Source of the DNA: Rubritalea marina DSM 17716 | GTDB taxonomy: Bacteria; Verrucomicrobiota; Verrucomicrobiia; Verrucomicrobiales; Akkermansiaceae | Direction of reading: 5' to 3' | Assembly (NCBI RefSeq): GCF_000378105.1 | Contig: NZ_KB899262.1 | Coordinates: forward strand, 1-64,000 | DNA: 64,000 bases | Shown: positions 35,741 to 64,000 of the stretch, one piece after another | How the letters are laid out: each line of letters starts with the position of its first letter | Position numbering within the stretch: position 1 is the stretch's first letter | Notes under the pieces: generated by a model | The model's database searches: none | Told to the model about the DNA's origin: nothing | The model's input: the letters and a program-made list of their open reading frames with translations, nothing else | Translations under genes and position numbers: made by a program

Positions 35741-35945
35741 GGACAAGGAAGCCGTTGCGCGTGGCAGCCTTCATCTTCCATGTGATAGTTGCTTTGCCGC
35801 TGGTGATTGACAGAGAGGAAGAGCTCTACCTTTCTCTGCGACCCCGTGTTTAAGGGATGCTAATGAGCTTGAGATCTTGATAGGTATAGCATTGCACCGC
35901 AAAACTCTTGGCCATGGGCTCGAGACAAGGGCATACTACGAAACG
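35741..35945. other. Short degraded stretch before kinase 2
   Basis: About 200 bases without a gene. Part may be the lost 5' end of the PEP-CTERM pseudogene; no promoter motif stood out. Confidence 0.3.
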
Positions 35946-40076: not shown

Positions 40077-40199
40077 AAAGAATATTAGTTTTGTGATGAA
40101 TCAATAGGCTCTTGGCCCAGTTGCTCGAGGTGAAATACGCCTCAAGTTCTCAGAAGAACCTGGGCAGATTGAATGCTAAGTTGTGGCTCGATCACTCCA

Positions 40200-40979: not shown

Positions 40980-41109
40980 TGCTTTGATAGGGGGTGAAGC
41001 ATTGTTTTTCGTATGCTTCTGGGCTGAGCTCAAGGTCAGGACAAGCAAGCCGTGAGAGTCAGCACGAAACAGCCTTCTATCAAAAAGTAGGGAGAAGGTT
41101 TGCTAAAAA

Positions 41110-41146
41110 ACAGCAGTGCCATCGATGCGAGTCATAGCACTGCTGT
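41110..41146 (-). terminator. Rho-independent terminator of the PEP-CTERM gene at 41213
   Basis: Perfect ten-base stem ACAGCAGTGC/GCACTGCTGT with a 17-base loop, followed by six T on the minus strand. Confidence 0.85.
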
Positions 41147-41212
41147 CTTGTGGGATAGTCATGACTCTCGGATGGGTGGAATAGTCGCCCATCTCGGAGT
41201 CAATCAGGTCGA

Positions 41213-41998: not shown

Positions 41999-42079
41999 TT
42001 GTTTTTGTTTTTGTTTTCTGGGCTTTTTGGGGGGTGTTTCCCTCACAGCTCCAAATCGTTTTAAGTGAATAACTAGCTG

Positions 42080-45311: not shown

Positions 45312-46136
45312 CTAGCGCTTGCGGCGCACGAAAAGCGCGAGAGCTCCGAGACCTAGGAGACTCGTAGTAGCAGGCTCTGGGACGGCTGTGACATGGAGTT
45401 CGATCGCCTCAGTGGAATCATTCCATTGGAATTCCGCTTGAAGTCCAGCACCCAGCCCGCTCACACCAAAGTTGGCACCAGTCGCAGCATCTGTGAAAGT
45501 TGCGTTGTCCATATTTGCGCCGTCACTACTGAAATCCACTAATGTGATCACCCCCACACCGCCAGTATAAGCGGCCATGTTAGCATTGTAGGTAGCATTA
45601 GAGATCGCTCCTGTCATGCCACCATTACCGAGTCTAAATGTACCTGGTGTTAGCGTGGTAAAGCCAGCAGCCCCTAATTCAAAACTGAAGACATTGAGGT
45701 CTTTCTGCTCCCAGTTACCCATGTTCACGGAAGCTCCGTTTTGGAAATTAAATGTACCACCATCAAGATCCCAGAATCCTCCTCCGTTCAAAGAAGATCC
45801 TGAGCTCACGTGATAGGTCGCATTGTTAGCCCTAAATACAACTCCATCACTAGAAAGGTTTGAATTGCCTGAAAGGGTGAGATCGACACCAAAGGTAATA
45901 TTGTCACCAGCTAAGTCCATGATAACCGTATCGCCATTGTTGATGGTTACAGTGTCACCGATTCCGGGAGCTCCAGAAGTTCCGCTGCCATTGCCATCCC
46001 AGTTTGCGGCATCCGACCAATTACTATTCCCAGCAGCGCCGCCAGTCCACACGACTGTGGCCGATTGCGCCGCCATTGGCAAAATGGCGAAGAGTGCGAA
46101 TGTTCCTAGTAGTTTGGATTTGGGTAGGTTTTTCAT
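45312..46136 (-). CDS. PEP-CTERM protein with one WDG module
   Basis: A 274-residue exported protein with signal peptide (1-25), a WDG module (VVWTGGAAGNSNWSDAANW, NVFSFELGAAGFTT, YNANMAAYTGGVG) and a VPEP/hydrophobic/RRKR tail. ATG at 46136 is chosen because it begins the signal peptide. The final tail is identical in protein sequence to that of the neighbouring gene at 46342, with DNA about 90% identical over the last 80 bases. It converges on the regulator gene ending at 45205; no terminator is evident between them. Confidence 0.88.
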   Translation of the reverse strand: MKNLPKSKLLGTFALFAILPMAAQSATVVWTGGAAGNSNWSDAANWDGNGSGTSGAPGIGDTVTINNGDTVIMDLAGDNITFGVDLTLSGNSNLSSDGVVFRANNATYHVSSGSSLNGGGFWDLDGGTFNFQNGASVNMGNWEQKDLNVFSFELGAAGFTTLTPGTFRLGNGGMTGAISNATYNANMAAYTGGVGVITLVDFSSDGANMDNATFTDAATGANFGVSGLGAGLQAEFQWNDSTEAIELHVTAVPEPATTSLLGLGALALFVRRKR

Positions 46137-46283
46137 CACAAATATCAATATGGTGTTAGCTTCCTCAGTTCATTGAGGCCAAAGAGTATATTGTTACATG
46201 ACTCACTTAATATCAACCTAAAAACACCCTGTATATGTAGGAGTTCGCTAACAGATCGAGTTCTAGGCCGCAGCACACACAAA

Positions 46284-46341: not shown

Positions 46342-47118
46342 CTAGCGCTTGCGGCGCACGAAGAGCGCGAGAGCTCCGAGGCCTAGGAGGCTCGTAGTTG
46401 CTGGCTCTGGGACTGCCGTAGTCACCACTAAGTTGACGTTACCAGAGTCGTAGACCAACTCCCAATCACGTCCACCATCAAGGTTTTGCACATCAAGGGT
46501 TGCAGTTTGGAAATCTGAATCAGTAATGGCATTATTCGAGAATGACATGAGCGTGAGTGTGCCGATCCCCTTGAACGCATCGGCATTCACGGTGTATGAA
46601 GCATCAGCCATGGTAGCTCCTCCACCTAATAATAAATTGCCAGCATTGATGGATGTGAAGCCACTACCACTGAGTTCGAAATTAAAAGCATTGGTGCCTT
46701 TATGCTCCCAAAATGATGCATTCACCGATGAACCATCAACAAAATTGATAGTGCCACCACTGAGGTCAAGAAAGCTGCCACCACCAAAAGTCGAACCAGC
46801 ACCAATGTTCACTGTGGTACTACCTAGACGTAAAACACCACCCGCAATACTAGTGGTAGGATCTATTAATGAAGATCCGCCTGAAAGGTTGATTGTATAA
46901 GAACCGTTGAATTCCGTAGCTGTGACAGAGGATCCATCGGTGATGAACACATCATCGCCAGCTACAGGAACAGCATTACCGTCCCAGTTAGCACTATTGT
47001 TCCAATCGTTATCAGCTTCGCTGCCATCCCAGGTGACTGTCGCAGCATGAGCTCCCATTGGTAGTATTGCGCTCAGGGCTATGGCAGCGAGCAATTGAGG
47101 AGTGGATTGTTTTTTCAT
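46342..47118 (-). CDS. PEP-CTERM protein with one WDG module
   Basis: A 258-residue exported protein: signal peptide (1-25), WDG module (VTWDGSEADNDWNNSANW, HKGTNAFNFELSGSGFTS, TVNADAFKGIGTL) and VPEP/hydrophobic/RRKR tail identical to that of the gene at 45312. The start is ATG 47118. The body has diverged more from its neighbour than the tail, so the tail is under constraint or has been homogenised by conversion. A strong terminator follows. The 115-base gap upstream carries one of two GTGATCACAGG-containing palindromes that flank the glycosidase-SASA pair. Confidence 0.88.
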   Translation of the reverse strand: MKKQSTPQLLAAIALSAILPMGAHAATVTWDGSEADNDWNNSANWDGNAVPVAGDDVFITDGSSVTATEFNGSYTINLSGGSSLIDPTTSIAGGVLRLGSTTVNIGAGSTFGGGSFLDLSGGTINFVDGSSVNASFWEHKGTNAFNFELSGSGFTSINAGNLLLGGGATMADASYTVNADAFKGIGTLTLMSFSNNAITDSDFQTATLDVQNLDGGRDWELVYDSGNVNLVVTTAVPEPATTSLLGLGALALFVRRKR

Positions 47119-47234: not shown

Positions 47235-48068
47235 CTAGTGCTGGATCGCTTGAGCAGGGAATGAGAACACTGGCCAAGAGTTTTCATCCTGTAAATTCGG
47301 GATCGCGATGTCTGACCACCCCATTCTGACGAAGCGTGGCTTGGGGCAAGCTTCAGCGCTGAGTAAGACGGTATTTCCCTGGAGGATGGCAGAAGCTGGC
47401 ACGAAGTCTGTGCCGTCGGCTGAAACTTCAAAGAACGATGGTTCCTTGCCGTCTTTTGTCTGCAAGCCACGGTCAACCTGAGAAAATTCGACCTGCACCT
47501 TGTCCCCCACGAGGCGCGCATAAGCGAAGCTGGGGCCAGCGCAGACTACGTCTTTGGCATAAATTTTGGCGAGCGCCATGGAAGCGAGCCGCTCACCGAC
47601 CGGTTGCTTGCTTTTGGGGTGGATGTCTTTGACATGGATGTCTGTATCGTGGATGGCCACCAGTTCGACGCCTTCAATTTCCTCGGTAGCTTTGTACTGG
47701 GCAGCCCAGATCGTATCGCAGAGTGTGCTATTCTTTGGCTGCTGGCCATTGCTGTAATCATAGGGTGCGATTTGCACTTGGTAGAGCGGGATGTTAGGCA
47801 CACGAAATGCTTTCGACCAGCCGTAGGACAAGGCTTGTAGCTTTTTAAAGTACTGAGTATCTCCACGATTGGACTCCCCTTGGTACCAGATACTTCCTTT
47901 GATCGCATAGGGGGTCAGCGGGGCGATCATGGCATTGTAGATGATGTTATCCGCCCAGCTATAGACTATATGACTGGAAATCACCTTCGGCAGAGAAACC
48001 TCAGCTTGGGCATTCATTGCCATAGCTAGGGTGCAGGCTCCGAATAGTTTTGCGTATTGGTTCAACAT
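47235..48068 (-). CDS. Sialate O-acetylesterase-like protein with large internal deletion
   Basis: A 277-residue exported protein (signal peptide about 1-22) that belongs to the sialate O-acetylesterase/SASA family by its C-terminal part: YAIKGSIWYQGESN, then IHDTDIHVKDIHPKSKQPVGERLA, which holds the catalytic His. The family is normally ~450-500 residues. Here the start of the mature protein (SLPKVISSHIV, the family's N-terminal strand) joins directly to IIYNAMIAPLTPYAIKG, so about 200 residues with the GQSN nucleophile motif are missing. It is therefore very likely inactive as a serine esterase. Because the frame is intact and it starts one base after the glycosidase stop (TAAGATG), it is still expected to be translated. 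Confidence 0.75.
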   Translation of the reverse strand: MLNQYAKLFGACTLAMAMNAQAEVSLPKVISSHIVYSWADNIIYNAMIAPLTPYAIKGSIWYQGESNRGDTQYFKKLQALSYGWSKAFRVPNIPLYQVQIAPYDYSNGQQPKNSTLCDTIWAAQYKATEEIEGVELVAIHDTDIHVKDIHPKSKQPVGERLASMALAKIYAKDVVCAGPSFAYARLVGDKVQVEFSQVDRGLQTKDGKEPSFFEVSADGTDFVPASAILQGNTVLLSAEACPKPRFVRMGWSDIAIPNLQDENSWPVFSFPAQAIQH

Positions 48069-49752: not shown

Positions 49753-52700
49753 CTAATTTTCTTCAACAATGGTGAGGACCAATGACGATGTGACAGTGTC
49801 GAAACCTAGGGTGCCATTGAGCCCGCTAGACCCTGAGTAAACATTGACTGCTGCTGGAGTAAATGGCTCATCATAAGCGCCAGCATGCATGCTGTGATCC
49901 ATCAGAACAACGGTGGTGCCATTGCTTATATCGTAATCAGATAGATCCACTTCATAGGTCACATTGTCCCATCCCGAACCCATCAGGCTGCCTGCTTGGA
50001 TTGTGGTGAAACCTGCAGCCGACAAGTTAAAGGAAAAGGTATTCTGCCCCTTATGTTCAAAGCTCATGTTCGGGTTAGCAAAGGCTGCCCCATCGTGAAA
50101 TTCAATGAGTGCTCCATTGGTATCAAGGAATGTGAGGGAAGCACCAAGGCTGCCACGGAGCTCGAGCACCGATGCCTGCAAGCGGAAGACTCCAGACTTA
50201 TCGATTTCCCCATCCACCACAAAGTAATTTGAATCCATGAACTCATCAGCAAAGGTGACCGATGCCCCCGCTTCCACAGTGAGCGAGTTGAAGTCACGCT
50301 TACCATCCACAACGGCAGCACCCTGGCTCACTCTCACCCAATCATCCATATTTGGCAGGGAATCTCCCTCCCAATTGCTAGCACTGAGCCAAGAATTATC
50401 TCCAGCATCACCATCCCAAGCAAGCTCCACGAACAAGTCAAGGACGAGCTGGGAATTTGCCGTGTCGAAGTAGAGAGTGGCCGCCAAGCCTGAGTCGCCA
50501 CTCACGATCACCACATTCGGGTTGAAGACGCCATCAAATACCGCATCGTGTGACAAGTAGTCCATCAGGATGATGGGTGAATCCAAGTCCCCCGCGTACT
50601 GCGAGACATCCACATGGATCGTGATGTCCGACCATGAACGGTCAGTGCCATCCAAGTTATCTTCTTCGACCGTGATGAAGCCAGACTCATCGAGCACAAA
50701 GTGGTGGGTATTTCCATCTTCACTCAGGTAGTGGTCAATGACCAAGGTCACAGCTGAGCGCGCGACATCGAACTCGAGCACCGCAGCAATTCCGCGCCCA
50801 CCATCGTTGATGTTCACGCTAGGGTTGAACTCGCCATCATAGGCGGCAGCGTGGCTCGCGTAGTCGATCAGATCAATGACCAAGCCATTCTCTAGCTCGT
50901 ATTCAGACAGGTCGACATTGAAGGTCACATCCGACCAATCTTCATCCACACCATTGTAGAGATTCCCAGGAGTGAGGGTGGTGAAGCCCGCACTAGAGAA
51001 GTGAATCCCGTAGGTGGTCGTGCCACGGTGCTGGATGTTGCTCGGGCTGAAGGTGGCTCCATCTTCAAAATTCAGGGTGCCATCCTGGAGATCAATCCAA
51101 GCCCCATCCATCCCGCTGCCATCGTAGAAGTGGAAAGTCATTCCACCATACAATCGCGCAGCTGCCGCGCTATTCGTGATCTGAGCGCCATCCACCACGT
51201 GCATGGTGACCCCAGTTGGGAGCGACCAATCGTTGGCTGGGATGTCAATCGTCTGACCATTTGCAATGACCAAAGTCTCGCCATTCGCTGGTACCACTCC
51301 ACTGCTCCAATTACTAGAAGATGTCCAGAGTGAGTCACCTGATCCACCGAGCCACATTTGATCTGCTGGTGCTGCAAGCTCTAGGTAGTGCGCTGTGTAG
51401 GTGACAGCGCCACTCGCAGGTGCCACCACAGGCCAGCCCGCAAAGTAACGGCTACCCGAATTCAGCCCGATTGGTGGTGCGGCCGTTTGCCCTTCAGCCA
51501 CCGTCTGGGTGCTCACGGAGCCATCCACATTGACGAAACTAATCTCATAATTCGTATCAACCGTGAAGACCACCATTGAGTTTTCGAGGTCGAATGTCAG
51601 CGAACCTGTGATTCCAGCACCAGCATCCTCGACATTCACCACGGGATGGAAGCTGCCGTCGTATGCTGCCGTATGGCTAGCGTAGTCGATCAATTCGAGA
51701 ACCTTACCATGGCTCGTGTCATAGGCACTCAAATCGATGTTGAAGGTCACATCTGACCAATCTTCACTACCAGAATCCTTGAGGGCTCCGGGAGTGAGGG
51801 TGGTGAATCCAGTCGCTGAAGCCACCAATCCATAGCTTGTCGTACCACGGTGCTGGATATTGCTTGGCGTGAAGGTCGCACCATCCTCAAAATTCAGAGT
51901 GCCATCGTAGAGGTCAATCCAAGCACCTGACATGCCTGAGCCGGTAGCAAAGTTGAAAGTCATCCCACCGTAGAGACGGGCTGCAGCCGAGCTGTTGTCG
52001 ATCTGTGAGTCACCCGCAACATTGACCGTAATCCCAGCTGGGAGTGACCAATCATTGGCTGGAATATCCACAGTATCTCCATTCGCGATGGCAATCACAT
52101 CACCCTGAGCTGGGAGCAAATCTTCAGTCCAGTTCGCTGCAGAAGTCCATACGCTATCCGCAGCACCACCGTCCCAAGTTACATCCACAGCACCTAGGTC
52201 TACTTGGTATTGAGCCACGTATGTCGCATTAGCAGATGCCGGAGCAACCACTGGCCAAGCCGTGAAGATTTTGTCTCCATCACTCACTCCCGCGGGAGGA
52301 ACAGCCACTTCACCAGTCATCACCCATTGGCTGCTTTCTGAGCCATCGACATTGATAAAGGTGATCTCATAACTAGTGTCGAAGGTGAATACCACTTTAG
52401 AAGTCGCCACCTCAAAGCTGAGCGCACCACTGAGCCCAGAATCGCCGGCGGTGACATTCACCACTGGGTCGAAGCTTGCTCCGTATGCGGCGCTGTGGCT
52501 TGCGTAATCGATCAAGTCCACAGTGAGTCCATTGGCGATGTCGTAAGCTGACACATCGATGTTGAAGGTCACCTTTGACCAATCTTCATCACCCGCGTCG
52601 TGCAGCGCCCCCGGAGTGAGGGTTGTGAAGCCTGCGCTTGAGAGCGTCATCCCATAGCTCGTCGTCCCACGGTGTTGGATATTGCTTGGCGTGAACGTGG

Positions 52701-55700
52701 CTCCATCCTCGAAATTGAGGGTTCCATATAGGAGGTCAATGTAGGCTCCGCTCATACCACTTCCAGCAGCAAAATTGAAGGTCATCGATTCATACAAACG
52801 AGCAGCGGCAGTGCTGTTGTCGATCTGTGAATTTCCGGCCACATTCACGACAATGTCGTTTGCTAGGTCAAAGAAATTGGCAGGGATGTCAACGACTTGA
52901 CCATTGCTGATTGCGATCACTTGACCAGCACTCGGCAGGACTGACCCCGACCAATTTGCAGCAGATGTCCATAAATTATCGCCAGCACCACCGACCCAAC
53001 TGATGTCGACTTGACCGACATCGATCTGATAATTCGCCGTATAGGTCGCATCTGCAGCCGCAGGCAAAATCTGCGGCCATGAGGTGAAGATCTTGTCACC
53101 ACTATTCACTCCGGCTGGGGCAGTCGCCACCACGCCCGCGTCCACAGTCTGAGTGCTCACTGAGCCATCCACATTCACAAAAGTGATGGTGTAGGTGACC
53201 ACCATCTCTTCATAGAGTGCGGTGTAGGTGGCATTGGCCGTAGCAGGTTCGATCGTTGGCCAAGCAATGAAGTTACGAGTCTCCGTACTCACACCAGTTG
53301 GTGCTTCAGCAATCTCTCCTGCAGCTACTGTCTGGTTCGTCTCAGTTCCGTTGACATTGACAAAGGTGATAGTGAAACTATCGAGTGGCCCAACGAGGGC
53401 TCCATAGATGGAATCTGCCTCAATCTGCTCACCATTAGCATTCGGGTGAACCCCGTCGTAGTAGACGTCAGCAGCCGTATCGAAGGTGCTTGCTAGATCT
53501 AGAAAGCTGACTTCAGAGCTCGCCGTAGATTCATCGGCAGCTAGGGTGCTCAGCAAACCATTGATCGCCACATAGTGCAGGTTCTCAGCCTTTGGTACAG
53601 TGAAGTCACCATTCACATCAGCATTGAAACGTGGAAGAATCGACACCAATAAGATACGGATATTCGGGTTACCATGACTGCCGACATCCCCCTGAAGGTT
53701 GTCCACGATGGACTTGAGGTTATCTCTGACGTCTTCAGCAGTCGTCGTATCATCGTGACCAATGTCATTCCCGCCCAAGAAGACAACCGCTGTGTCAGGG
53801 GTCTCATCCTGATCTTTCAGGGTGCTCAGGAATGATGGAGCCATGTTGGCAAGATGAACTGCCCCCAAGCCCCAGTACCCTTCATGCCTATTGACAAAAG
53901 TCTGACCACTGTAGTCGGGGTAGACCGAGAACGCGTCAGGATTTACTGGATCGTAATTGTTCGTGCTCGTGCCCACAAATTCATGGGCAATCCCTTGATC
54001 CACTAGATGCTTCCAGAATGGATAGCGCCACGACCAATTACCGTCACCGGCAGTGTGAGTGGCTGAGGCTTCGGTCAGGGAATCACCGATACAGATGATC
54101 TTGCCTAAGCCTTCCACCGGCTCATGCACACTGACTGCTGCCAACGAGAAGGCCTCGTAGGCAAAGATCGCATTATTGCCACCACTTTTCACTAAATCTA
54201 GTGTCAAGGTGTCTGCGCCATCAGTCGTGAAGTCGATGGTGTATTCGTACTTCTCAGTGCTATTGCTCTGATAGTTACCAGCAATCGTGTCAGTGGTGCC
54301 ACTACTCGCTAGGCGCACCGTGGCATCGAGGTTCAATTCATAGGTTGTGGCATAGAACTTCAGCTGGTACGTGCCCGCATTAGCCACATCTAGGGTGAGA
54401 CGTACTCCATCACCAACAGCGGCAATCGTTGCATTTCCAGCAAAACTGGTACTTCCTGAAGCGGTAGGAGAACCATTGCTCCAAGAATACTGGTTCTGGC
54501 CATAAAACGAGCCACCATCAAAGCTGGTATTGCCAATCGCCGTCAGACTGGTGAATCCAATGCCACCATCCATGCTCTGCCCAGGAACCGTAAGCGCACC
54601 ATCCCAAGCTCCCCAATCTAGAGTGCCATCAGCACTGAGATCAATTGCGGTGCTTCCCTGCGCCCCACTAGCACTCTGGCTCAGCGATACGGCCAAATCA
54701 GCGGAACCACCCACCAATAGATATTGGGCTAAGTAGCTTGTATCCTCAGTCGCTGGAGCGATGCTTGGCCAGGCAGTGAAGGTTCGATCTGGGGTGCTCA
54801 CACCCGCTGGAGGAATCGCCACCACTCCTTGCAGAACCGATTGAGTTGTCGTAGAACCATCCACATTGATGAAAGTAATCTCGTAGCTTGAAGGCGTGGC
54901 ACCATCGACAAAGCTATTGATGTAGAGCTGCACATTGGCCTCACCGACTGCGAAATGATCGTAGCCGTGAATGTCCGCAAAGTTGGTCCGGTAAGGAGCC
55001 ACTTGGGTATTAAAAAGCGCAGCTCGGGAGTCCGTATTCGTGATCGAAGCGAGGACATTATTAATCCGTTGCCCCGAATTGCCTACAGTGTTCATCACAT
55101 AGCGGAAGTCACTGCTTCCTACATCGCCAGCCAGCTCATTGAGCATGCCATTCCAACGTTCGATATAGACCGAATCTGGGGTGCTTACCCCCGTGGTGGC
55201 TCCATCACCATCCGCTTCTCCTTGGAACCAGAAGAGGCCCTTGAAGTGAACGGTTTTACCTTGGCCTTCGAGCTCAGCTATCTTGGCTTCGAGTGCTGCC
55301 GTCCCACCCTGATAGGTGCCGAAGAAGTTCTTCTGATAGGCCCACTGCGGAGCACCATCCTTGAACCAATTCTCAATTGCCATGCCCGGCTCGCCTTGGA
55401 TCACGACCGTCGGATTGGTAAAGCGACCAGAAGCGGTCAGTGCCGCCTGCACGCCCGCACCAAATTGGAAAGTACCGACCTGATTCACGGAATCCCACGG
55501 CCAAGCAGCATTCGACTGACCAGTCGCGATGAACAAATCCACAATGTCACCACTTGCTTCAGTATACTCTGCGGTGTAGGTGGCATCTGCGGTGGCCGGA
55601 GCAATTGTCGGCCAGCCTGTGAAAGTACGGTTACCCGAGTTCACTCCCGCTGGTGGGGTCGCTACCACTCCTGCAGAAACCGACTGAGATGACTGCGATC

Positions 55701-58296
55701 CATCAACATTAACGAAGGTGATCGTGTAGCCAGTTGGCGTGTTTTCGAAAGTATCAATGAAGAGCTGAGCATTTGCCTGCCCCACCGCGAAGTGGTTGTA
55801 ATCATGAAGATTGCCATATTCCGCTTCCACGATGATATTTTGATTATGATACGGAGAATTGAGCGCATCATAAATGGCTCCACGCGGGTCAGCGTCAGCC
55901 ACAGCATTGAGGATCGTGTTGATTTGGTCTCCAGACTCAGCCACAGTATTCACCACGAACTTGTATTGAGTGTGGTCCAGCCCAGCGGCTTGGAGATCGG
56001 CATCTAGCTTTGCCAGCAAGCCGTCCCAGCGGGTTTGATAATCTGCCTGTGTGGTATTGGCAGTGGCATATGGGCCAAGTCCATCGCTCTCACCCTGCCA
56101 CCAAAAGACGCCGCGGAAGCGAGGTGTATTGCCCGCTGCGATGATCTCATTGATCTTCGCCTGGAGGCTTCCTTCACCACTGCCATCGATGTCAAAGAAG
56201 TGACGGTCATATCCGGTGTAAGCAGCTCCGCCAGCAGCCCAGAATTCTGCCCACCAATAAGCAATCGGGCGGCCACCATCCCCCTGCAATACCACCGTCG
56301 GGTTGGAAAATTCGCCAGAAGCACTCAGAGCCGCTTGAACCCCTCGGCCAAAGCCGTATTGATTGTCCATCGGGTACACCGCATTCGACTGCCCAGTCGC
56401 GATGAAGACATCCACGATGTCGCCACCCGCTGGCGGAGGCGTTACTTCGCTAGGCTCTACCACAGTAGCCAAAGCATCCGCATAGGCTTCACCAATGTCG
56501 TACATGTCATTGGTGCCATTCCCAGTGTTATCGGACGATCCTTCACCGCTCTTGCCTACGTGAACTTGGCTATTCGATTGGCCGTAGTGATCTGAGTTAA
56601 CAAAGGCGATGTCGTCATCTGGATTTGCAACTCCAGCCTCCAAACCTGCTCCCCAGCGGTTGTTGCCAGTGATCACCACTGGGAAATTTGCAGAATCCTG
56701 CAAGCCATGCTCACTCGCAAGGTGAGCGCGCACTGCTGTGATGAACTCATTCAAAGCCGCTGCTGATGTGCCATTCTCACCTTGCCACCAGATCATGCCT
56801 TTAAAGTTCGGGGTGTGGCCATCCGCTTCTAGCTTGGTGACCGCATCAGAAATCGCTGCTTTGAACCCGCGCCAAGCATCACCCTGTCGGTAGCCCGTCG
56901 CAGTTGTATCCCAGTCCGACGCGGCAGTGACCTCCGTCGAGGTGCTGAGGCCGGAACCATCCACACCATATTTGATGATCCCGATCGGGTTACCCGTCAG
57001 ATTGATTTCATTGGCACGAGCGGCAAAGCCAATCTCAGGACCAAACCACGCAGCTGGCCCTAGGGCACCGGCAGCCGTATCACCACCCAAGGCGCCACCA
57101 TTACCAAATCGATTGTCGTACCAATATGCGCGAGTGTAGCCAGCCTCAGTTTGCTCCGCCCAATCGGAGAAATTCTGAGTGCTCTCGGCATTGTAGCCAT
57201 CGCTGTGCCACGAACAATAGAACATCACATCGTGCGGTCCTGACTGTGCTGGGCTCATTAAATTGGAGCGCTCCCCTTGCCCATTCGCATTCGATTGCCC
57301 AGCAATGATGAAGAGGTCCACTACCTGTGCCACATCGCCAGAACTCACAGCAATGTTCACCACAGTGTTGGGTGCATCTGAGTCATTGGATGCAATCGTC
57401 AGCGTGGCATTGTAGACTTTGTCTCCCGCGCCTGGGTTGAAATTGAGCGCAATATTGCCTGCAGCGCCCACGGCGAGCGATGAATTGTAAGCTCCCACCG
57501 TGAAGTGTGCGGCATCAGCACCACCAACAGTGACACCAGTCACCGACAATGGCTCCTGCCCATTGTTGTTGTAGGGAAGCTGGAACGTCTCGGCTGCTGA
57601 ATCGTTATCGAAGCCAAAGCTCGGATCGATGTTAAGGTTCGGCACTGGAGTCACATCCACTGCAGACAAACTAAAGGCTTCATAGGCGAGAATAATATTA
57701 CCGCCATCCTTCACCACATCCAGCGTGAGCGTGTCACCACTATCAGTCGTGAAATCTACCGTGAACTCATACTTGCCCAAATTGCCTGGAACCGTTCCAG
57801 TCGCAAGATCACTGACACCACCATTCGCCAAGGTGGCAGTGGCTTTCAAATTCGTCTGTGAGGTGGTCGCGTAAAACTTAAGTCGGTAGGTGCCAGCGCT
57901 TGGCAAGTTAAAGCTGAGGCGCACCCCGTCACCATCAGCTCCCAGATTGGCATTGGTGGTCAGGTTGTTGCTCCCCGTACCCGGTGAGTCACCATTATTC
58001 CAAGTGTAACTATTCTCACCATAAAAGTTATAAAATGCATCCGAGGCACCACCAACGTAGGTCATATTGACGTAGCCGGCACCACCATTCATCCGAGTAC
58101 TCGGCGCCAATGTGCTATTGGCAAACACCCCCCAATCAAGATCTCCCTCAGCTGAGATATCCACTGGATTTGTACCGGGCGATCCATGGGCACTCTGATT
58201 GAGTGACACATCGATACTCGCTGCCATTGACGACAGCGCGGCATAGATACTGAACAGAATCAGCGTGATTGTTTTTTTAAGGATTGGATTTTTCAT
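49753..58296 (-). CDS. Giant secreted four-esterase protein with InlB-like and WDG repeats
   Basis: A 2847-residue exported protein. Order: signal peptide (1-26); discoidin/CBM-like domain (27-213); Ig-like domain (219-320); SASA-type SGNH domain 1 (326-612; Ser335 in GQSN, WWQGEN); SASA 2 (627-848; Ser637, WWQGESDG 732-739, His835); SASA 3 (918-1130; Ser928, FQGEADG, His1114); second discoidin-like domain (1199-1389); GDSL esterase (1398-1636; Ser1406, GGND 1508-1511, Asp1614/His1617); then WDG modules at 1764-1975, 2037-2249, 2311-2521, a half-module at 2522-2622, and a last module at 2625-2844. Six InlB B-repeat-like linkers (FVNVDGS...) occur at about 855, 1137, 1640, 1701, 1975 and 2249. 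It ends IVEEN with no PEP-CTERM or anchor. SASA 1 is the most divergent and lacks the ESD part of its QGESDG motif. Confidence 0.92.
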   Translation of the reverse strand: MKNPILKKTITLILFSIYAALSSMAASIDVSLNQSAHGSPGTNPVDISAEGDLDWGVFANSTLAPSTRMNGGAGYVNMTYVGGASDAFYNFYGENSYTWNNGDSPGTGSNNLTTNANLGADGDGVRLSFNLPSAGTYRLKFYATTSQTNLKATATLANGGVSDLATGTVPGNLGKYEFTVDFTTDSGDTLTLDVVKDGGNIILAYEAFSLSAVDVTPVPNLNIDPSFGFDNDSAAETFQLPYNNNGQEPLSVTGVTVGGADAAHFTVGAYNSSLAVGAAGNIALNFNPGAGDKVYNATLTIASNDSDAPNTVVNIAVSSGDVAQVVDLFIIAGQSNANGQGERSNLMSPAQSGPHDVMFYCSWHSDGYNAESTQNFSDWAEQTEAGYTRAYWYDNRFGNGGALGGDTAAGALGPAAWFGPEIGFAARANEINLTGNPIGIIKYGVDGSGLSTSTEVTAASDWDTTATGYRQGDAWRGFKAAISDAVTKLEADGHTPNFKGMIWWQGENGTSAAALNEFITAVRAHLASEHGLQDSANFPVVITGNNRWGAGLEAGVANPDDDIAFVNSDHYGQSNSQVHVGKSGEGSSDNTGNGTNDMYDIGEAYADALATVVEPSEVTPPPAGGDIVDVFIATGQSNAVYPMDNQYGFGRGVQAALSASGEFSNPTVVLQGDGGRPIAYWWAEFWAAGGAAYTGYDRHFFDIDGSGEGSLQAKINEIIAAGNTPRFRGVFWWQGESDGLGPYATANTTQADYQTRWDGLLAKLDADLQAAGLDHTQYKFVVNTVAESGDQINTILNAVADADPRGAIYDALNSPYHNQNIIVEAEYGNLHDYNHFAVGQANAQLFIDTFENTPTGYTITFVNVDGSQSSQSVSAGVVATPPAGVNSGNRTFTGWPTIAPATADATYTAEYTEASGDIVDLFIATGQSNAAWPWDSVNQVGTFQFGAGVQAALTASGRFTNPTVVIQGEPGMAIENWFKDGAPQWAYQKNFFGTYQGGTAALEAKIAELEGQGKTVHFKGLFWFQGEADGDGATTGVSTPDSVYIERWNGMLNELAGDVGSSDFRYVMNTVGNSGQRINNVLASITNTDSRAALFNTQVAPYRTNFADIHGYDHFAVGEANVQLYINSFVDGATPSSYEITFINVDGSTTTQSVLQGVVAIPPAGVSTPDRTFTAWPSIAPATEDTSYLAQYLLVGGSADLAVSLSQSASGAQGSTAIDLSADGTLDWGAWDGALTVPGQSMDGGIGFTSLTAIGNTSFDGGSFYGQNQYSWSNGSPTASGSTSFAGNATIAAVGDGVRLTLDVANAGTYQLKFYATTYELNLDATVRLASSGTTDTIAGNYQSNSTEKYEYTIDFTTDGADTLTLDLVKSGGNNAIFAYEAFSLAAVSVHEPVEGLGKIICIGDSLTEASATHTAGDGNWSWRYPFWKHLVDQGIAHEFVGTSTNNYDPVNPDAFSVYPDYSGQTFVNRHEGYWGLGAVHLANMAPSFLSTLKDQDETPDTAVVFLGGNDIGHDDTTTAEDVRDNLKSIVDNLQGDVGSHGNPNIRILLVSILPRFNADVNGDFTVPKAENLHYVAINGLLSTLAADESTASSEVSFLDLASTFDTAADVYYDGVHPNANGEQIEADSIYGALVGPLDSFTITFVNVNGTETNQTVAAGEIAEAPTGVSTETRNFIAWPTIEPATANATYTALYEEMVVTYTITFVNVDGSVSTQTVDAGVVATAPAGVNSGDKIFTSWPQILPAAADATYTANYQIDVGQVDISWVGGAGDNLWTSAANWSGSVLPSAGQVIAISNGQVVDIPANFFDLANDIVVNVAGNSQIDNSTAAARLYESMTFNFAAGSGMSGAYIDLLYGTLNFEDGATFTPSNIQHRGTTSYGMTLSSAGFTTLTPGALHDAGDEDWSKVTFNIDVSAYDIANGLTVDLIDYASHSAAYGASFDPVVNVTAGDSGLSGALSFEVATSKVVFTFDTSYEITFINVDGSESSQWVMTGEVAVPPAGVSDGDKIFTAWPVVAPASANATYVAQYQVDLGAVDVTWDGGAADSVWTSAANWTEDLLPAQGDVIAIANGDTVDIPANDWSLPAGITVNVAGDSQIDNSSAAARLYGGMTFNFATGSGMSGAWIDLYDGTLNFEDGATFTPSNIQHRGTTSYGLVASATGFTTLTPGALKDSGSEDWSDVTFNIDLSAYDTSHGKVLELIDYASHTAAYDGSFHPVVNVEDAGAGITGSLTFDLENSMVVFTVDTNYEISFVNVDGSVSTQTVAEGQTAAPPIGLNSGSRYFAGWPVVAPASGAVTYTAHYLELAAPADQMWLGGSGDSLWTSSSNWSSGVVPANGETLVIANGQTIDIPANDWSLPTGVTMHVVDGAQITNSAAAARLYGGMTFHFYDGSGMDGAWIDLQDGTLNFEDGATFSPSNIQHRGTTTYGIHFSSAGFTTLTPGNLYNGVDEDWSDVTFNVDLSEYELENGLVIDLIDYASHAAAYDGEFNPSVNINDGGRGIAAVLEFDVARSAVTLVIDHYLSEDGNTHHFVLDESGFITVEEDNLDGTDRSWSDITIHVDVSQYAGDLDSPIILMDYLSHDAVFDGVFNPNVVIVSGDSGLAATLYFDTANSQLVLDLFVELAWDGDAGDNSWLSASNWEGDSLPNMDDWVRVSQGAAVVDGKRDFNSLTVEAGASVTFADEFMDSNYFVVDGEIDKSGVFRLQASVLELRGSLGASLTFLDTNGALIEFHDGAAFANPNMSFEHKGQNTFSFNLSAAGFTTIQAGSLMGSGWDNVTYEVDLSDYDISNGTTVVLMDHSMHAGAYDEPFTPAAVNVYSGSSGLNGTLGFDTVTSSLVLTIVEEN
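49765..53007 (-). repeat. Array of WDG beta modules (52372-53007, 51550-52188, 50734-51366, half at 50431-50733, 49765-50424)
   Basis: Each full unit is about 210-220 residues: an N-half with W-(D/V/L)-GG-x-G-D-x-x-W-T-S-A-x-N-W and an IQHRGTT(S/T)YG strand, and a C-half with GFTTLTPG, EDWSxVTFN, LIDYASHxAAY and NV. The unit at 50431-50733 is only the C-half, showing that the halves are exchangeable. The first three units are separated by InlB-like linkers. Confidence 0.85.
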
Positions 58297-58344: not shown

Positions 58345-59151
58345 TTATTGGCTGCTATTGGTGCGGTGTTGATTGAGGGTTAGATTACCCATTTTGATGA
58401 GAGTCGTACCATCTTGAGCATCGCGGGCTGAATGATTTTTCTCGATATGCAGCACGAGAGAGTGGGTTTCTTTTTCCCATTCGAAGCGACAGTCTTGGTA
58501 GACACCAGCATTGAGGATTTCTGTTGATTTCGTCGAAAACCACTCAGGGTACGTGTCCTTCGAGCAACGATCGAATTGCACTAAGACTAGCTTCTGTGAC
58601 GGACCTCGATAATCTTTGAGATCCACTACGTAGCGGGTTGCCGCATTTTCAGGTGGGGCATCCACTGAGAATATATAGGGACGCAGTGGCTTGAACCCTT
58701 GAGCATCCAACTTAAAGGTGAAGCTTGGCTGCAGCTTATTTTCCCAGAGCACCTTGCCTCCTAGCTCAGCCCCAGACTCGAAAGTGACTTGCCCACCCAG
58801 CCAATCCAAAAACATCTGGTGCTCTTGTTCACTAGTAAGTTTTGCCTTAGACCCGATGTGAATCTGAGCGTGGTTAAAGCGAATCACTGCTGCCACTTTC
58901 AAGTGTGTTTTCCCATCCAATCGTAGTGATTCAGCCAGTAGGTTGCCGTTCTCCAATGTATTATCCCAGATCACCTCCGCGTCTTTGATCACCACATCAT
59001 CACCAAGCCGAGGTAGACGATCGACTGACCAATTCTGCGGTGAAGTCCAAAGCCCATCACCAGCCTCACCATCCCAAGTGACAGGATTAGCCAGTGCTAT
59101 ACAGGTCAGTGCTATGGGGGTAATTGCGTGTAGTGTTGTGCTTATTTTCAT
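58345..59151 (-). CDS. Secreted WDG-module protein without sorting tail (copy 2)
   Basis: A 268-residue exported protein, paralog of the one at 40200 (both with a VFI/VVIKDAEV segment, FLDWLGG/A-VTFE and SFTFKL/QL). It comprises a signal peptide (to about residue 22) and one WDG module (VTWDGEAGDGLWTSPQNW). The tail LTLNQHRTNSSQ is not a PEP-CTERM signal. ATG at 59151 is chosen over an in-frame start at 59184. It sits between the 1338-residue and 2847-residue proteins, with 38 and 48 bases on either side, so it is part of the same operon. Confidence 0.75.
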   Translation of the reverse strand: MKISTTLHAITPIALTCIALANPVTWDGEAGDGLWTSPQNWSVDRLPRLGDDVVIKDAEVIWDNTLENGNLLAESLRLDGKTHLKVAAVIRFNHAQIHIGSKAKLTSEQEHQMFLDWLGGQVTFESGAELGGKVLWENKLQPSFTFKLDAQGFKPLRPYIFSVDAPPENAATRYVVDLKDYRGPSQKLVLVQFDRCSKDTYPEWFSTKSTEILNAGVYQDCRFEWEKETHSLVLHIEKNHSARDAQDGTTLIKMGNLTLNQHRTNSSQ

Positions 59152-59189
59152 AGCCTTTGTTTGTTGAATGTTTGCTGTCAGCATCTGCT

Positions 59190-62100
59190 CTACTCGACGC
59201 GTACTCTGAAGAAGCCTTTTCTATCTTCTGGGTTGAGTTCGATGCTGACCGACTCGATCGCCTCATCCGCCACATGACCAGTGGCGATTTCATCCCACCC
59301 CTCGTTACTGAGATCGAATGAATGATCGATCGAATAGCTTTTCCCACTCACTGCCGGCCATTGGATGACGAAGTCACCATTTTCAGAGGAACTCGTGGTA
59401 ACACGGAAGACCGAGAATGCATCGCTGGGGATAGTGCCTGTGATGAATTCTTCCCAGTTGGCTTGCCCGTCACCATCCGCATCATCGAGCAAAGCGTCAT
59501 TGCTCCAGCGGTACCCGTAGGTGTCTAGCCAGCTAGTCGTCACTCCATGTTCCAGTGTGTGCTCACCACCCGACCAGCTGAGCTGGGCGATCGTTGGGAC
59601 TGATCCAGTCCAAGCACTTGCTCCCAGATTGAAGGTTTGTTCAGCACCAAAACCAATGAACTTCGCCTGACTCCAAGCGCCCAGCTCGGTAGTGCCGTCG
59701 GCTAACTTGAAGTCAGAAAGCTCCAACTCCACTTCATTGAGCCCAATCGTAATAGGCACATAGGCCATGTAGGTATTACTAGATCCTCCATTCCAATCAT
59801 CAGCCACCAAACGTACCACGAGGGTATTTTCAGCATCTGCTGTCAGATCAAATTGGAACGTCGCTCCTACACCACCACGGTAGCAAATGTCACTGATCTT
59901 GCGGGTGTGGAACTGCCAAGCCTGCGAGTTTGACCCATTGATGACAAACCAATCACGGAACCCATGGCTTGCCGATGGGTCATCAATCGCTTCGCTAATC
60001 TCCGCAGTTTCCTTCACCCCACTCGCTAGCAAGGCATCTGGATCTAGCACATGGATTTGATGGATCGCTGTGTCTAGATCATCGGGTAGCGAGTAATCAT
60101 CATCCACGCCACTTGGGTAATAGGTGTGCACCTTGGAAGCGATCGTCAGATGCTCCGTCGGCGAGCCAAATGGAACGTCCTGCGAAAAGCCGACATCGTA
60201 GGTGATCACAGCATGCGCCACCATCATTTCTTCCACATCAAAGACGGGCAATGCAGCCTCCCAGTGGCTCCCTTGATCAATCGCTTCTGCATGGCGCCAG
60301 AAGCGCGTGCGCGAATCACGATCCGTGCCATAATAAACATCCACGGAAACAATAGAGAATGAGGTCGATGAGTCAGGGAATACTCTGAAGCGCGGCACAC
60401 CGTCATCACTTGACCATTCGAGTTCGGAATCTGAAGTCTCTGGGAAATCAATATCCCCCTTGAGGTGGTGGCGCATCCAATGCACCCGTGCAGCCAACGA
60501 GGAATCGGTCACTCTGTGGTTGTAATGAGGATCGGTCACCAAGCGGTTATTCGGTGAGACATCACCTAAGCCCACTTCGTGGATCGATAAGCTCTTCGTC
60601 GCTAAGTCAAATGGTGCATTAAAATCATTAGATCCATTGAGAAAGAGCACCGGGACAGAGACATGCGGCCAGTAGCTTTGATCCGCCACCGCATTCTTGA
60701 AGAGCTCAATATCTTGCCAGCCGGTGGAATGACGTGCGGTTCCTGGGAGCCCCCAGAAATCTTCATAAAGGTAGCCAGTTCCGCCAACTGCAGGCGCCAG
60801 CACCGTGATGCGTGGATCAGTCGATGACATCATCGTCGTTCTTCCACCCATACTCCAGCCCAGCACACCAATCTTACTATCGTCCACTTCCGCTTGGGAC
60901 TGGAGGAAAGTAATCGCACGGCGCACGGCATACCCATTCAGCGTCCAGCTGCTATTCATTGGGTGCGGAATGTCGAAGAGCGTCTGGCCATCGCTAAATG
61001 TCGCTGGATCTACAGCGGCCCAAAAGATCGCTTCAGTGACAGGGTTTTCCAGTGGTTCGCTATCTGTAGAAACTCGGGTAAAGCCACCTGCGATACCGTC
61101 CCAGTCGGTATTCGGATGCACTTCACCTTCCGCGGGTGCTGGTTCGTCTGGATTTGCCGCACTGAGGTGCAAGCCACCCCAATTGATAGAAATTGCAGCG
61201 TATCCTTGCTCGGCCCAGAACTTTGGAATCACACTCTGCGCCCGTTGACCCCCGCCATGGTTCTGCAATAAACCAGGCAAATTAGAAGCCCCGGTTGGGC
61301 GGGCATAATAGGCCGCAATCACTGGATTTGCCGTGTGCTGGCTCCCAGTTAGGGTTCCTAGCTCGTAAGTAATACGCGAGATCGTGATCGTATCGCCAGA
61401 TCCATCGCTGTGAGGCTCAGTCCAGGTCGTCACGGTGGCCGTGTTTAAGGGATCATTCTCGATCTTATCCTGAAGCCAGACCCACATGTCTGAGGATGTC
61501 TGAGGCGTGTAGGAAATCGACACTGTGGCCACATTCGAATCATCAACACCATCATTCACTTTGAAACTAAAGCTATCATGCGCTGGTGAGTCACCTGTGA
61601 AGGTGTAGACGAGGTTTGGTGCCGTCCCGGAAAGAGAACCGTGGTTCGGGTTGCTCACGATGCTGTAGCTGAGTTCATCCCCCTCGATGTCGCTCGCCAC
61701 TAGCGTGACATTCACCACATTCTCGCCGTCATAGGCGTAGCTGCGACCACTCGCCACCGGAGCATCATTGCCAGCGGCGTCAATCGTAGCCACTAGCTGT
61801 GAGGTGCTCGTATCAAAACTCAAGGCGGCACCAATACCAGTGCCACCATCGATCACATTCACCGTGGGATTGAATGTCCCATCGAAGTCCGTCGCATGGT
61901 TGCTGAAGTCAATCAAAACGACCGAGAGCCCATTGCTCGTGTCGTATTCAGAAAGATCCACATTCATTGTGAAATCACTCCAACCTAGGGTGCCACCATC
62001 AGCTAAGCCACCCAAAGCTAGGGTGCTAAATCCAGTCTCTGAAAAGGTGAAATCTAGGGTTGTGGCACCACGCACCTCCACGGTGCTAGCCACATCAAAG

Positions 62101-63206
62101 CTTGCGCCGTCAGTGAATTTTAGATGCGAATTTGTCCCTATGTCCAACCACCCTAGGTTCGAACCTACCTTACCAGTCGCTGAAAATTCTAGTTCACAAC
62201 CGTAGGGACGGAAGGCGCTATTCGTATCCAAATCTAGGGTGCCGTGCACCTTGATCAACTTGCTGGATGGAAAGTATGAAGCAAAACTCACACTGGCACC
62301 CTGCCCAATTTCTAGGCTCTTGAAGTCGGTACTCGCCCCAGTCACCACTGCGGAGCCAGCCACTAGGACATCATCGGCATTGGTCGGCACGGCATCGCCC
62401 ATCCAGTTCAATGCGCTCGACCAGAGGCCATCACCAGCCTCACCGTCCCATGACAATGGGCCTTCTGCAAAGCTATACAGCAATTGTCCGGAGCCGCTAT
62501 CAAAGCTCAGCTCACCTTCCAGCCCACTCTCACCAGCCACCACATTGACCACTGGATTAAAATCGCCAGTGAAGTCACCCACCACATTGCTGAAATCCAT
62601 CAAAACCACACTGGAGCCATTCACGATATCGTAATCACTCACATCAAGGTTCACCGTGATCTCACTCCATCCAGCGATCCCGCTATCCCAGAGTGCCCCT
62701 AAATTCAAGGTATCGAAACCCGAATCAGAAAGCGTAAAACCTAGGGTGGTGGCACCACGCATTTCTAGGGTGGAGCTGGTTCCAAAGCTCGCACCATCAT
62801 CAAAACTCAAGACCGCACCAGTGCCCAGATCAATCCAGTTGATCCCACTGCCCATCACCCCCGTGCTGGAAAAATTCAGGGTGCTTCCCTTGGGCCTGAA
62901 TGCCCCACTAAAACTTAGGGTGCCTCCAATGTTGAGCACCTTCGAGCTCACGTTGTCAGTGGAGAAGTCGACACTCGCCCCGGACTCAATCGTCAAGGTC
63001 GCAAAGTCCGCGGTGGCCGCCGTCACGGTAGCTCCCACACTTACCTCATCACTGGCACTTGGCAGTCCGTCTGGATTCCAGTTGGAAGGAGAACTCCAAA
63101 GCCCATCTCCCGCTTCACCGTCCCAAGTTATTTCTGCTTGGGCAATGCTGGCACCGAGGGTGCAAAGTAGGATTGAGGAGAATGCTTTCATGTGTAGTTG
63201 TTGCAT
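59190..63206 (-). CDS. Secreted WDG-module/acetyl-esterase fusion
   Basis: A 1338-residue exported protein: signal peptide (about 1-24), two WDG modules (27-246 and 252-476), a cadherin-like/Big_17-type Ig domain (481-566), an alpha/beta hydrolase of acetyl-xylan-esterase type (about 573-920; HGGG 650-653, nucleophile Ser785 in GWSMGG, candidate Asp861 in GSNDFNAP and His894/897), a beta accessory region (to ~1220) and a C-terminal DADGDGQANWEEF stretch (1242-1254) that resembles a calcium-binding loop. The esterase and accessory domains are most like the first part of the 2505-residue protein, including the FLNGSNDFNAPFD stretch. A start six residues in, at 63191, is also possible. It begins 11 bases after the partial gene on its right. 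Confidence 0.9.
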   Translation of the reverse strand: MQQLHMKAFSSILLCTLGASIAQAEITWDGEAGDGLWSSPSNWNPDGLPSASDEVSVGATVTAATADFATLTIESGASVDFSTDNVSSKVLNIGGTLSFSGAFRPKGSTLNFSSTGVMGSGINWIDLGTGAVLSFDDGASFGTSSTLEMRGATTLGFTLSDSGFDTLNLGALWDSGIAGWSEITVNLDVSDYDIVNGSSVVLMDFSNVVGDFTGDFNPVVNVVAGESGLEGELSFDSGSGQLLYSFAEGPLSWDGEAGDGLWSSALNWMGDAVPTNADDVLVAGSAVVTGASTDFKSLEIGQGASVSFASYFPSSKLIKVHGTLDLDTNSAFRPYGCELEFSATGKVGSNLGWLDIGTNSHLKFTDGASFDVASTVEVRGATTLDFTFSETGFSTLALGGLADGGTLGWSDFTMNVDLSEYDTSNGLSVVLIDFSNHATDFDGTFNPTVNVIDGGTGIGAALSFDTSTSQLVATIDAAGNDAPVASGRSYAYDGENVVNVTLVASDIEGDELSYSIVSNPNHGSLSGTAPNLVYTFTGDSPAHDSFSFKVNDGVDDSNVATVSISYTPQTSSDMWVWLQDKIENDPLNTATVTTWTEPHSDGSGDTITISRITYELGTLTGSQHTANPVIAAYYARPTGASNLPGLLQNHGGGQRAQSVIPKFWAEQGYAAISINWGGLHLSAANPDEPAPAEGEVHPNTDWDGIAGGFTRVSTDSEPLENPVTEAIFWAAVDPATFSDGQTLFDIPHPMNSSWTLNGYAVRRAITFLQSQAEVDDSKIGVLGWSMGGRTTMMSSTDPRITVLAPAVGGTGYLYEDFWGLPGTARHSTGWQDIELFKNAVADQSYWPHVSVPVLFLNGSNDFNAPFDLATKSLSIHEVGLGDVSPNNRLVTDPHYNHRVTDSSLAARVHWMRHHLKGDIDFPETSDSELEWSSDDGVPRFRVFPDSSTSFSIVSVDVYYGTDRDSRTRFWRHAEAIDQGSHWEAALPVFDVEEMMVAHAVITYDVGFSQDVPFGSPTEHLTIASKVHTYYPSGVDDDYSLPDDLDTAIHQIHVLDPDALLASGVKETAEISEAIDDPSASHGFRDWFVINGSNSQAWQFHTRKISDICYRGGVGATFQFDLTADAENTLVVRLVADDWNGGSSNTYMAYVPITIGLNEVELELSDFKLADGTTELGAWSQAKFIGFGAEQTFNLGASAWTGSVPTIAQLSWSGGEHTLEHGVTTSWLDTYGYRWSNDALLDDADGDGQANWEEFITGTIPSDAFSVFRVTTSSSENGDFVIQWPAVSGKSYSIDHSFDLSNEGWDEIATGHVADEAIESVSIELNPEDRKGFFRVRVE

Positions 63207-63217
63207 GTCTCTTTGCT

Positions 63218-64000
63218 TTATTGCTTCGCCTTCTTCAGTCCATCGACCTTCTCTTCGAGCTCAATGGAGACGTCTATTTGATCTGAGAATTGTTTTTCGT
63301 AGGCCTCTGGACTGAGCTCAAGGCCACCACCATTCATGAGAATGGTTTGTGGATATTGCCCGCCGAGCCATTGCATGTTGCGCAGTTGCTGGCCGTGGCC
63401 ATGCTTGGCATTGCTGTGGTAGGTTTGAGGCTGCCCGTCGACCGTCACATCCAATCGATGGGTGAGCGTGAGGTGGTCGAGCGTCTGCCAGTCCGCTGGC
63501 ATGCCTTTTTGGTCAGCCTTCACTGGCTTGAGGTCATTGATGTCGACTGTGACTTGCTGCCAATCTGCAGACGGTTGAACAGGCACCACAGCATAGAATT
63601 CACCTTGCGGGTACTCGCGACCGTACTTCGAATAGTCATTGAAGCGGAACTCCATGATCACATTCTTCGCTGCGGGGTCGAGCACCTCCACCGCAAGCTT
63701 TGCCCCAATCGGGCCACGCCATTTGGGATCGCGAACCTTGCGAGTGTTCAGCCTGCGCTGGGAATAGCGGTACCAATCTGGCTTACCGTCATTGGCGAAG
63801 CTTTTCTGGATCATGCGAGTCGAGCTATCGGTGACGGCTGGATTCGCTGCCTGCACCTCTGGGATTTCAAACTTCTCAATATTCGTACTGATGATGAATG
63901 TCTTTCCAGGATCTTTACTCCAACGCGGCCCCTGCAGCTTCAAGTGCTCAGGGTGCTTGTAGTTCACATTCGCGGTGGCGAAGAACCCTAGGTTTTTCGA
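63218..64000 (-). CDS. Large alpha/beta hydrolase, C-terminal part (cut by window edge)
   Basis: An open frame enters from the right edge and ends at 63218, giving 260 residues that closely match the C-terminal part of the esterase at 42080-44110 (for example NVNYKHPEHLKL and NIEKFEIPEVQAANPAVTD). The catalytic alpha/beta hydrolase half must lie beyond position 64000. The methionine at 63967 is internal and not a start. It is the first gene seen of the operon that continues through the 1338-residue, tail-less and 2847-residue proteins. Confidence 0.88.
   Translation of the reverse strand, partial: SKNLGFFATANVNYKHPEHLKLQGPRWSKDPGKTFIISTNIEKFEIPEVQAANPAVTDSSTRMIQKSFANDGKPDWYRYSQRRLNTRKVRDPKWRGPIGAKLAVEVLDPAAKNVIMEFRFNDYSKYGREYPQGEFYAVVPVQPSADWQQVTVDINDLKPVKADQKGMPADWQTLDHLTLTHRLDVTVDGQPQTYHSNAKHGHGQQLRNMQWLGGQYPQTILMNGGGLELSPEAYEKQFSDQIDVSIELEEKVDGLKKAKQ

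Follow-up and report, generated by a model that had tools for sequence, protein, structure and literature searches.

P0001, a protein of 2847 amino acids encoded in the stretch of DNA analysed here (64,000 nucleotides, the window), carries four SGNH-type esterase domains and is probably a secreted multimodular carbohydrate esterase that de-O-acylates a sulfated, acylated polysaccharide. Acyl groups and sulfate shield many marine polysaccharides from attack, and to our knowledge the bacterial stripping of heterogeneous acylation is poorly known. A single P0001 chain brings four esterase lineages together; S1 and S2/S3, two of its kinds of domain, lie outside the usual CE6/CE20 patterns, and the linked W-module family has surface-anchored members. 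The parts of the protein are small enough for single expression, which makes position specificity, calcium dependence and surface docking directly testable.

P0001 is encoded by a single uninterrupted ORF (58296..49753) with an ATG start and without a PEP-CTERM, and the plus strand opposite is full of stops. The preliminary description had placed a 2847-residue protein at 49753-58296; these coordinates were exact, and the strand, which it left unstated, is minus. Motif counts and internal BLAST gave the order signal peptide-A1-Ig(ASH-like)-S1-S2-Lk1-S3-Lk2-A2-GDSL-Lk3-Lk4-W1-Lk5-W2-Lk6-W3-half W-W4, with the following features:

49753..58296, minus strand: whole ORF P0001, 2847 aa, ATG start
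58219..58296, minus strand: Sec signal-peptide-like N-terminus, aa 1-26 (judged by eye)
57652..58224, minus strand: module A1, aa 25-215, CBM-like beta-rich family (internal BLAST; weak CBM35 matches)
57331..57648, minus strand: ASH/DUF1573-like Ig domain, aa 217-322 (Pfam, sub-threshold)
56452..57327, minus strand: SASA copy S1, aa 324-615, with S335, WWQGEN 503-508, H579 and EF-hand-like loop 589-600 (Pfam, motifs, model)
55741..56421, minus strand: SASA copy S2, aa 626-852, with S637, WWQGESD, N829-x-H831 and also D832-x-x-H835 (Pfam, motifs)
55552..55728, minus strand: linker Lk1, List_Bact/InlB-type (Pfam, internal identity)
54904..55548, minus strand: SASA copy S3, aa 917-1131, with S928, WFQGEAD, D1108-x-H1110 and H1114 (motifs, model)
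54709..54885, minus strand: linker Lk2 (internal identity)
54127..54705, minus strand: module A2, aa 1198-1390, 50% identical to A1 (internal identity)
53380..54111, minus strand: GDSL domain, aa 1396-1639, with S1406, N1510, D1614 and H1617 (Pfam; nearest solved relatives CE3 acetyl esterases)
53017..53379, minus strand: tandem linkers Lk3 and Lk4 (internal identity)
52378..53010, minus strand: W-module 1 (internal identity)
52195..52377, minus strand: linker Lk5 (internal identity)
51556..52188, minus strand: W-module 2 (internal identity)
51373..51555, minus strand: linker Lk6 (internal identity)
50734..51366, minus strand: W-module 3 (internal identity)
50434..50733, minus strand: half W-module, C-terminal half only (internal identity)
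49765..50430, minus strand: W-module 4 (internal identity)

The SASA, GDSL, linker and W parts of this inventory had been recognised before, whereas A1, A2 and the ASH/DUF1573-like Ig domain had been missed. The claim of four SGNH-type esterase domains, three SASA and one GDSL, was confirmed with Pfam, both families scoring above cut-off: SASA (PF03629) matched three stretches (whole protein E 5.8e-19, 69 bits against a cut-off of 24.8) and Lipase_GDSL_2 matched with E 3.8e-10. List_Bact_rpt/Flg_new was found in three stretches (E 1.9e-8). S3 alone reached 19.6 bits with SASA, which is below the cut-off and the weakest value among the window copies; all six S2/S3-type domains from the window and its relatives match the profile at E <= 0.01. 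Block I (GQSN) and block III (QGE) do not vary among the ten S1-S3 domains.

AlphaFold models of S1 and S3 revealed the SASA/SGNH fold, with a best Z of about 17. The S1 model (mean pLDDT 71.8, pTM 0.79, with the His loop below pLDDT 50) was closest to 2apj (Z 17.1, rmsd 3.2 over 198) and to the CE20 structures 7kmm/9ega (Z 16.6), the S3 model matched 1zmb (Z 16.9, rmsd 2.9 over 184), and the two models matched CE6, CE20 and SIAE structures at Z 13-17. S2 is assigned to the SGNH fold through its homology to S3. In a model of the part S3-Lk2-A2-GDSL-Lk3-Lk4-W1, S3, the linkers and W1 were mostly well predicted and A2 was mixed; the GDSL part, modelled without aligned relatives, had a pLDDT below 50. 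The GDSL domain is the only one of the four esterase domains in which the canonical Ser/Asp/His motifs are complete (S, GxND and DxxH blocks with S1406, N1510 and D1614/H1617). It appears CE3-like, CE3 membership being suggested by a weak phmmer match to the CE3 enzyme 5b5s (E 7.5e-4). A sequence search of solved structures with the S1, A and W profiles returned nothing convincing.

The six InlB-like linkers described earlier were recovered as exactly six I.F.NV.G copies, which are 45-76% identical to one another. Three stretches matched List_Bact_rpt/InlB B-repeat (PF09479; 34.7 bits, cut-off 27) and the other three linkers were assigned by identity. Many large surface proteins contain repeats of this type. 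The linkers had been thought to separate the W-modules, which is true for Lk5 and Lk6 between W1, W2 and W3; Lk1 follows S2, Lk2 follows S3, Lk3 and Lk4 follow the GDSL domain, and none lies between W3, the half module and W4. Likewise, the array of modules named after WDG is present, but the literal WDG occurs in W2 and W4 only. W1 to W3 are full copies with 59-68% identity, W4 is 30-37% identical to them, and one C-terminal half copy completes the array. The W-module corresponds to no Pfam family. The three Lk-W units have exactly 274 amino acids each and a DNA identity of only 60-66%, showing that the tandem array is old; with this DNA identity a collapsed assembly repeat is unlikely as well. 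A1 and A2 are modules of about 190 amino acids, and module A matched Pfam CBM35 weakly (E 0.02) in two of seven members. Foldseek matches of a beta-module to CBM35/61/6/4 had E values of 4e-3 and weaker, with the matched model region not specified.

The three SASA copies differ from CE6-type SASA esterases in block V, which contains the catalytic His. The S2/S3 domains end with the motif [DN][IL]H-x7-G in six of six cases, with the same spacing as in SIAE/CE20-type sequences (DIHPHNKIDVG). All six carry a block V of the CE20 kind, DxH-x7-G in which Asp or Asn occupies His-2; an insertion at this place takes S1 out of the comparison. In the CE6-type sequences of the relatives, block V is DxxH-x9-G (DGLHFNKAAKLRIG), which is absent in S1 (SQVH/TNTH/ANVH/FNSH) and S3 (DIHGYDH); S2 carries DYNH in addition to the CE20-spaced NLH. 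As judged with small home-made sets, the overall S2/S3 profile appears nearer to CE6 (97.9%, E 3.5e-12) than to CE20/SIAE (58%, E 1.4e-5). Each S2/S3 domain has a second invariant His four residues downstream (DYNH/GYDH) and thereby two candidate catalytic His residues. The hhalign alignment to the CE6-type set places the second His on the CE6 His; in the S3 model, the last helix starts with the second His and the preceding loop contains the first, which favours the first His as the catalytic one. The possibility that S3 is a degenerate copy, as GYDH might indicate, was rejected, since the motif is common to three genomes including a single-domain enzyme.

In a CE20 study from 2025, the Asp/Asn at His-2 of the DxH block V was found to hold a water contacting the His; D513N lowered the efficiency about 2.5-fold, and D513Q lost nearly all activity, with kcat dropping from 9.70 to 0.18 per second (PMC12313940). 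EcNanS is active although it lacks the block-V Asp (PMC9487903). The block-V deviations of S1-S3 are of kinds known from active SASA/CE20 enzymes.

At an overall S1 identity of 52-57%, the Ser, QGE, FGPE, IIKY and His are conserved. S1 is peculiar in that an EF-hand-like loop follows the His and in that N or Q is found at His-2, Q577 in the window S1 and N in the other three S1 domains. The loop is recognisable in all four; every ligand position is acidic in one copy from the relative G434 (DVDGDGINDMFE), and the window S1 (DNTGNG versus DVDGDG) has T in place of the acidic residue at ligand position 3. When the window S1 sequence is shuffled, the relaxed EF-hand-like motif arises in 0.2% of cases. 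Going by this motif, the loop may bind calcium. Because of T at ligand position 3 together with Q at His-2, the window S1 may be the least active copy; since D513Q is nearly inactive in CE20, the Q might even mean a weak enzyme or a binding domain. The WWQGEN that the preliminary description had noticed in S1 is present (aa 503-508), but it is not a mark of specialisation: QGE is followed by N in only two of the S1 domains, and by S in both S1 domains of G434. The EF-hand-like loop and the block-V residue are stronger marks of S1.

When the S2/S3 profile was run against 84,980 species genomes by way of exact peptide patterns, which can miss distant members, two loci were returned. L022 belongs to the Lentisphaerales MAG ALOHA_ZT_19, and L023 is a contig from the genus of the window genome that was also reached as G006. 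The phylum samples yielded one further relative, G434. Searches for viral relatives of S2/S3 and for plasmid relatives found none. L022 and G434 are Lentisphaeria-type genomes in which the modules occur in other orders in one or two proteins. The L022 gene (L022:8861-12075, plus strand) reads S1-Lk-S2-A-W; it has one in-frame stop inside W, after which the frame is open to the module end, either a nonsense mutation or a MAG error. The two G434 proteins (S1-Lk-A-Lk-S2-Lk-A-Lk-S1'-repeats and A-Lk-S3-Lk-A-repeats) lie in the same stretch, share a C-terminal tail and adjoin an alpha/beta-hydrolase and a double-GDSL protein. In G006, S3 occurs alone with a PEP-CTERM-like end. The architecture had been called unfamiliar, and indeed the full P0001 arrangement was not found elsewhere in the phylum samples or the pattern-based genome scan. 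Since its modules occur apart in other genomes, P0001 looks like a module fusion.

The tree separates S1 from S2 plus S3 at 100/100 and groups S3 at 89/100; S2 is not resolved as a group against S3, its members being 71-74% identical to one another and 41-47% to S3. These lineages are common to several genomes, so that the split between the three copies most likely predates their acquisition by these genomes. The phylogeny suggested earlier thus reveals separate old lineages, and a recent local triplication of SASA was rejected, since the copies fall in lineages found in other genomes. Identities of 69-74% across distant genomes raise the suspicion of horizontal transfer of the cassette. The 676-aa alpha/beta-hydrolase at the head of the window operon is 69-72% identical to the L022 and G434 copies.

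P0001 is part of a putative operon of minus-strand genes, and a second similar set lies at 38685-44110. The neighbouring features are:

63218..64000, minus strand: C-terminal part of a 676-aa alpha/beta-hydrolase, head of the putative operon (C16:63218-65248)
59190..63206, minus strand: P0003, two W-modules, an Ig-like domain and an alpha/beta-hydrolase, same putative operon (Pfam, internal identity)
58345..59184, minus strand: P0004, lone W-module protein, same putative operon as P0001
48070..49635, minus strand: GH63/GH37-like glycoside hydrolase
47235..48068, minus strand: SIAE-type esterase fragment without the GQSN half
46342..47118, minus strand: lone W-module with PEP-CTERM anchor
45312..46148, minus strand: lone W-module with PEP-CTERM anchor
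42080..44110, minus strand: second 676-aa alpha/beta-hydrolase, 79% identical to the operon head
41213..42046, minus strand: lone W-module with PEP-CTERM anchor
40200..41048, minus strand: lone W-module, no recognisable anchor, 44% identical to P0004
38685..40076, minus strand: double-GDSL protein with a counterpart (47.5% identity) in the G434 cassette

The 676-aa hydrolase, P0003, P0004, P0001, the GH63/37-like gene and the SIAE-type fragment stand nearly end to end, with gaps of 11, 5, 48, 117 and 1 bases in this order, and are followed by two PEP-CTERM W proteins. The second set comprises the other 676-aa hydrolase, two lone W proteins of which one has a PEP-CTERM, and the double-GDSL protein. 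The SIAE-type fragment retains a signal peptide and the QGE/DIHP blocks and lacks the GQSN-serine half; it may have suffered an internal deletion or be a remnant that is not catalytic. About twelve W-modules are located in the window, and the rest of the genome contains one weak partial match. The genome has exosortase genes, making PEP-CTERM sorting plausible. The operon and its flanks encode further esterases, two S1 sulfatases, the GH63/37-like enzyme and, in the remainder of the contig, a GH95-like enzyme with a DUF5703 domain. In the whole genome (G000, 3.0 Mb), 36 sulfatase matches were over the cut-off.

An esterase function is favoured by the Pfam matches, folds and motifs described above, by this context and by the conservation of the S1 and S2/S3 lineages across distant genomes. 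We propose that P0001 would be exported and that the three different SASA lineages and the CE3-like GDSL domain would each release O-acyl groups, most likely acetyl, every domain acting at other positions of a single polysaccharide that is heterogeneous and sulfated. The CBM-like A modules and the W-modules may hold P0001 on the glycan or the cell surface, with the linkers as probable spacers, and acyl removal by the four domains would allow sulfatases and glycosidases to act. Fucoidan as the definite substrate was considered and is not supported (one weak GH29 match in the genome; the single GH95-like enzyme is indecisive).

Multi-esterase enzymes are already known, as shown by the published Fll4 and by the SASA-GDSL fusions common in related bacteria. 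Fll4 of Flavimarina sp. Hel_I_48, the only relevant match in a full-text literature search for enzymes with several esterase domains, has a CE6 and two CE1-like domains, was called the first with three distinct esterase domains and has acetylxylan and feruloyl esterase activities; its third esterase domain was inactive on every substrate tested (PMC12247016). Like P0001 it is a marine enzyme with several carbohydrate-esterase domains, but only one of these is of the SGNH type (CE6, next to two annotated as CE1), whereas all four are in P0001, which in addition contains A, W and linker modules. SASA-GDSL or GDSL-SASA fusions are frequent in the family and order of the window genome (L046, L047, L051-L054, L056-L059); within the family, they were detected by motif in 10 of 14 loci and confirmed by Pfam in all five of those checked. 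Their GDSL domain is homologous to that of P0001 (30-43% identity, for example in L046, L051, L053, L054 and L057), but they have one SASA domain, of the CE6 type (DxxH-x9-G) where the motif is readable, and no S1-S3 type domains were found in the fusions of the family and order. The CE6/PF03629 SASA esterases (At4g34215 2apj, CAC0529 1zmb, EcNanS 3pt5) share GQSN, the QGE block III and the SGNH fold (Z 13-17) with S1-S3 and differ in block V, which is [DN]xH-x7-G in S2/S3 and [NQ]xH followed by the EF-hand-like loop in S1. CE20/SIAE enzymes (7kmm, 9ega, 9h4u, 8f9o) have the DxH-x7-G spacing and the Asp/Asn at His-2 in common with S2/S3; however, S2/S3 have about 220 amino acids and are devoid of the inserted ancillary domain, which in CE20 helps to hold the catalytic water. 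The novelty of P0001 lies in the joining of four SGNH-type domains to A modules, W-modules and linkers.

A rather unlikely alternative is that only some of the domains are catalytic, namely GDSL and probably S2/S3, with S1 and perhaps one more domain now serving in glycan binding or as structural parts. Q577 of the window S1 in place of the N of the other three copies, the missing acidic residue at ligand position 3 and the inactive third domain of Fll4 (PMC12247016) would be in line with this. However, the S1 motifs are kept at 52-57% identity, more than a dead domain would need, and EcNanS is active without the block-V Asp (PMC9487903). It is also conceivable, though very unlikely, that P0001 mainly serves as an adhesin at the surface or as a matrix protein, with the W/Lk/A arrays as its main part and the esterases as accessories. 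W-modules do occur alone in the PEP-CTERM proteins of the locus and in a giant of more than 5300 amino acids in G104, and linker repeats of this kind recur in many large surface proteins. The four esterase domains, the wealth of esterases in the operon and the lack of an anchor in P0001 itself argue against an adhesin.

The least probable explanation, hardly credible to us, takes the Pfam name SASA literally and makes P0001 a sialic-acid O-acetylesterase. Apart from this name nothing points to it: no sialidase or sialic-acid gene was present among the ORFs scanned in the window, the context is one of sulfatases and glycoside hydrolases, and acetylated xylan is a further substrate of SASA/CE6 members (PMC9487903). 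Beyond a polysaccharide esterase, P0001 could belong to a W docking system, an extension that we regard as unlikely: the lone W proteins with PEP-CTERM would hold the W-tailed esterases P0001 and P0003 by W-W contact or a shared glycan, forming a surface esterase complex outside the cellulosome and Sus types, and S1 would represent a SASA lineage that depends on calcium and has its EF-hand-like loop beside the catalytic His.

Several further genes were observed. In another family of the order, frames of more than 5300 amino acids (G104:C126, L020; C126:33844-34500) combine W-modules with cadherin-like and autotransporter-type repeats. The window contains a second giant multi-esterase, P0002 (2191-9726, minus strand, 2511 aa), with alpha/beta-hydrolase, Ig-like, CE6-type SASA and GDSL domains and repeated modules of about 140 amino acids in between, and the remainder of the contig encodes a 914-aa double esterase (L021:8800-11544, minus strand) with two different alpha/beta-hydrolase domains (AXE1/DLH-like and BD-FAE-like). 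Possible glycan sensors for the locus are a pair of histidine kinases (window 20276-22270, minus strand, and 35877-37982, plus strand), both of which contain F5/8-type C domains of a glycan-binding-like kind, and a LuxR-type response regulator (window 44552-45205).
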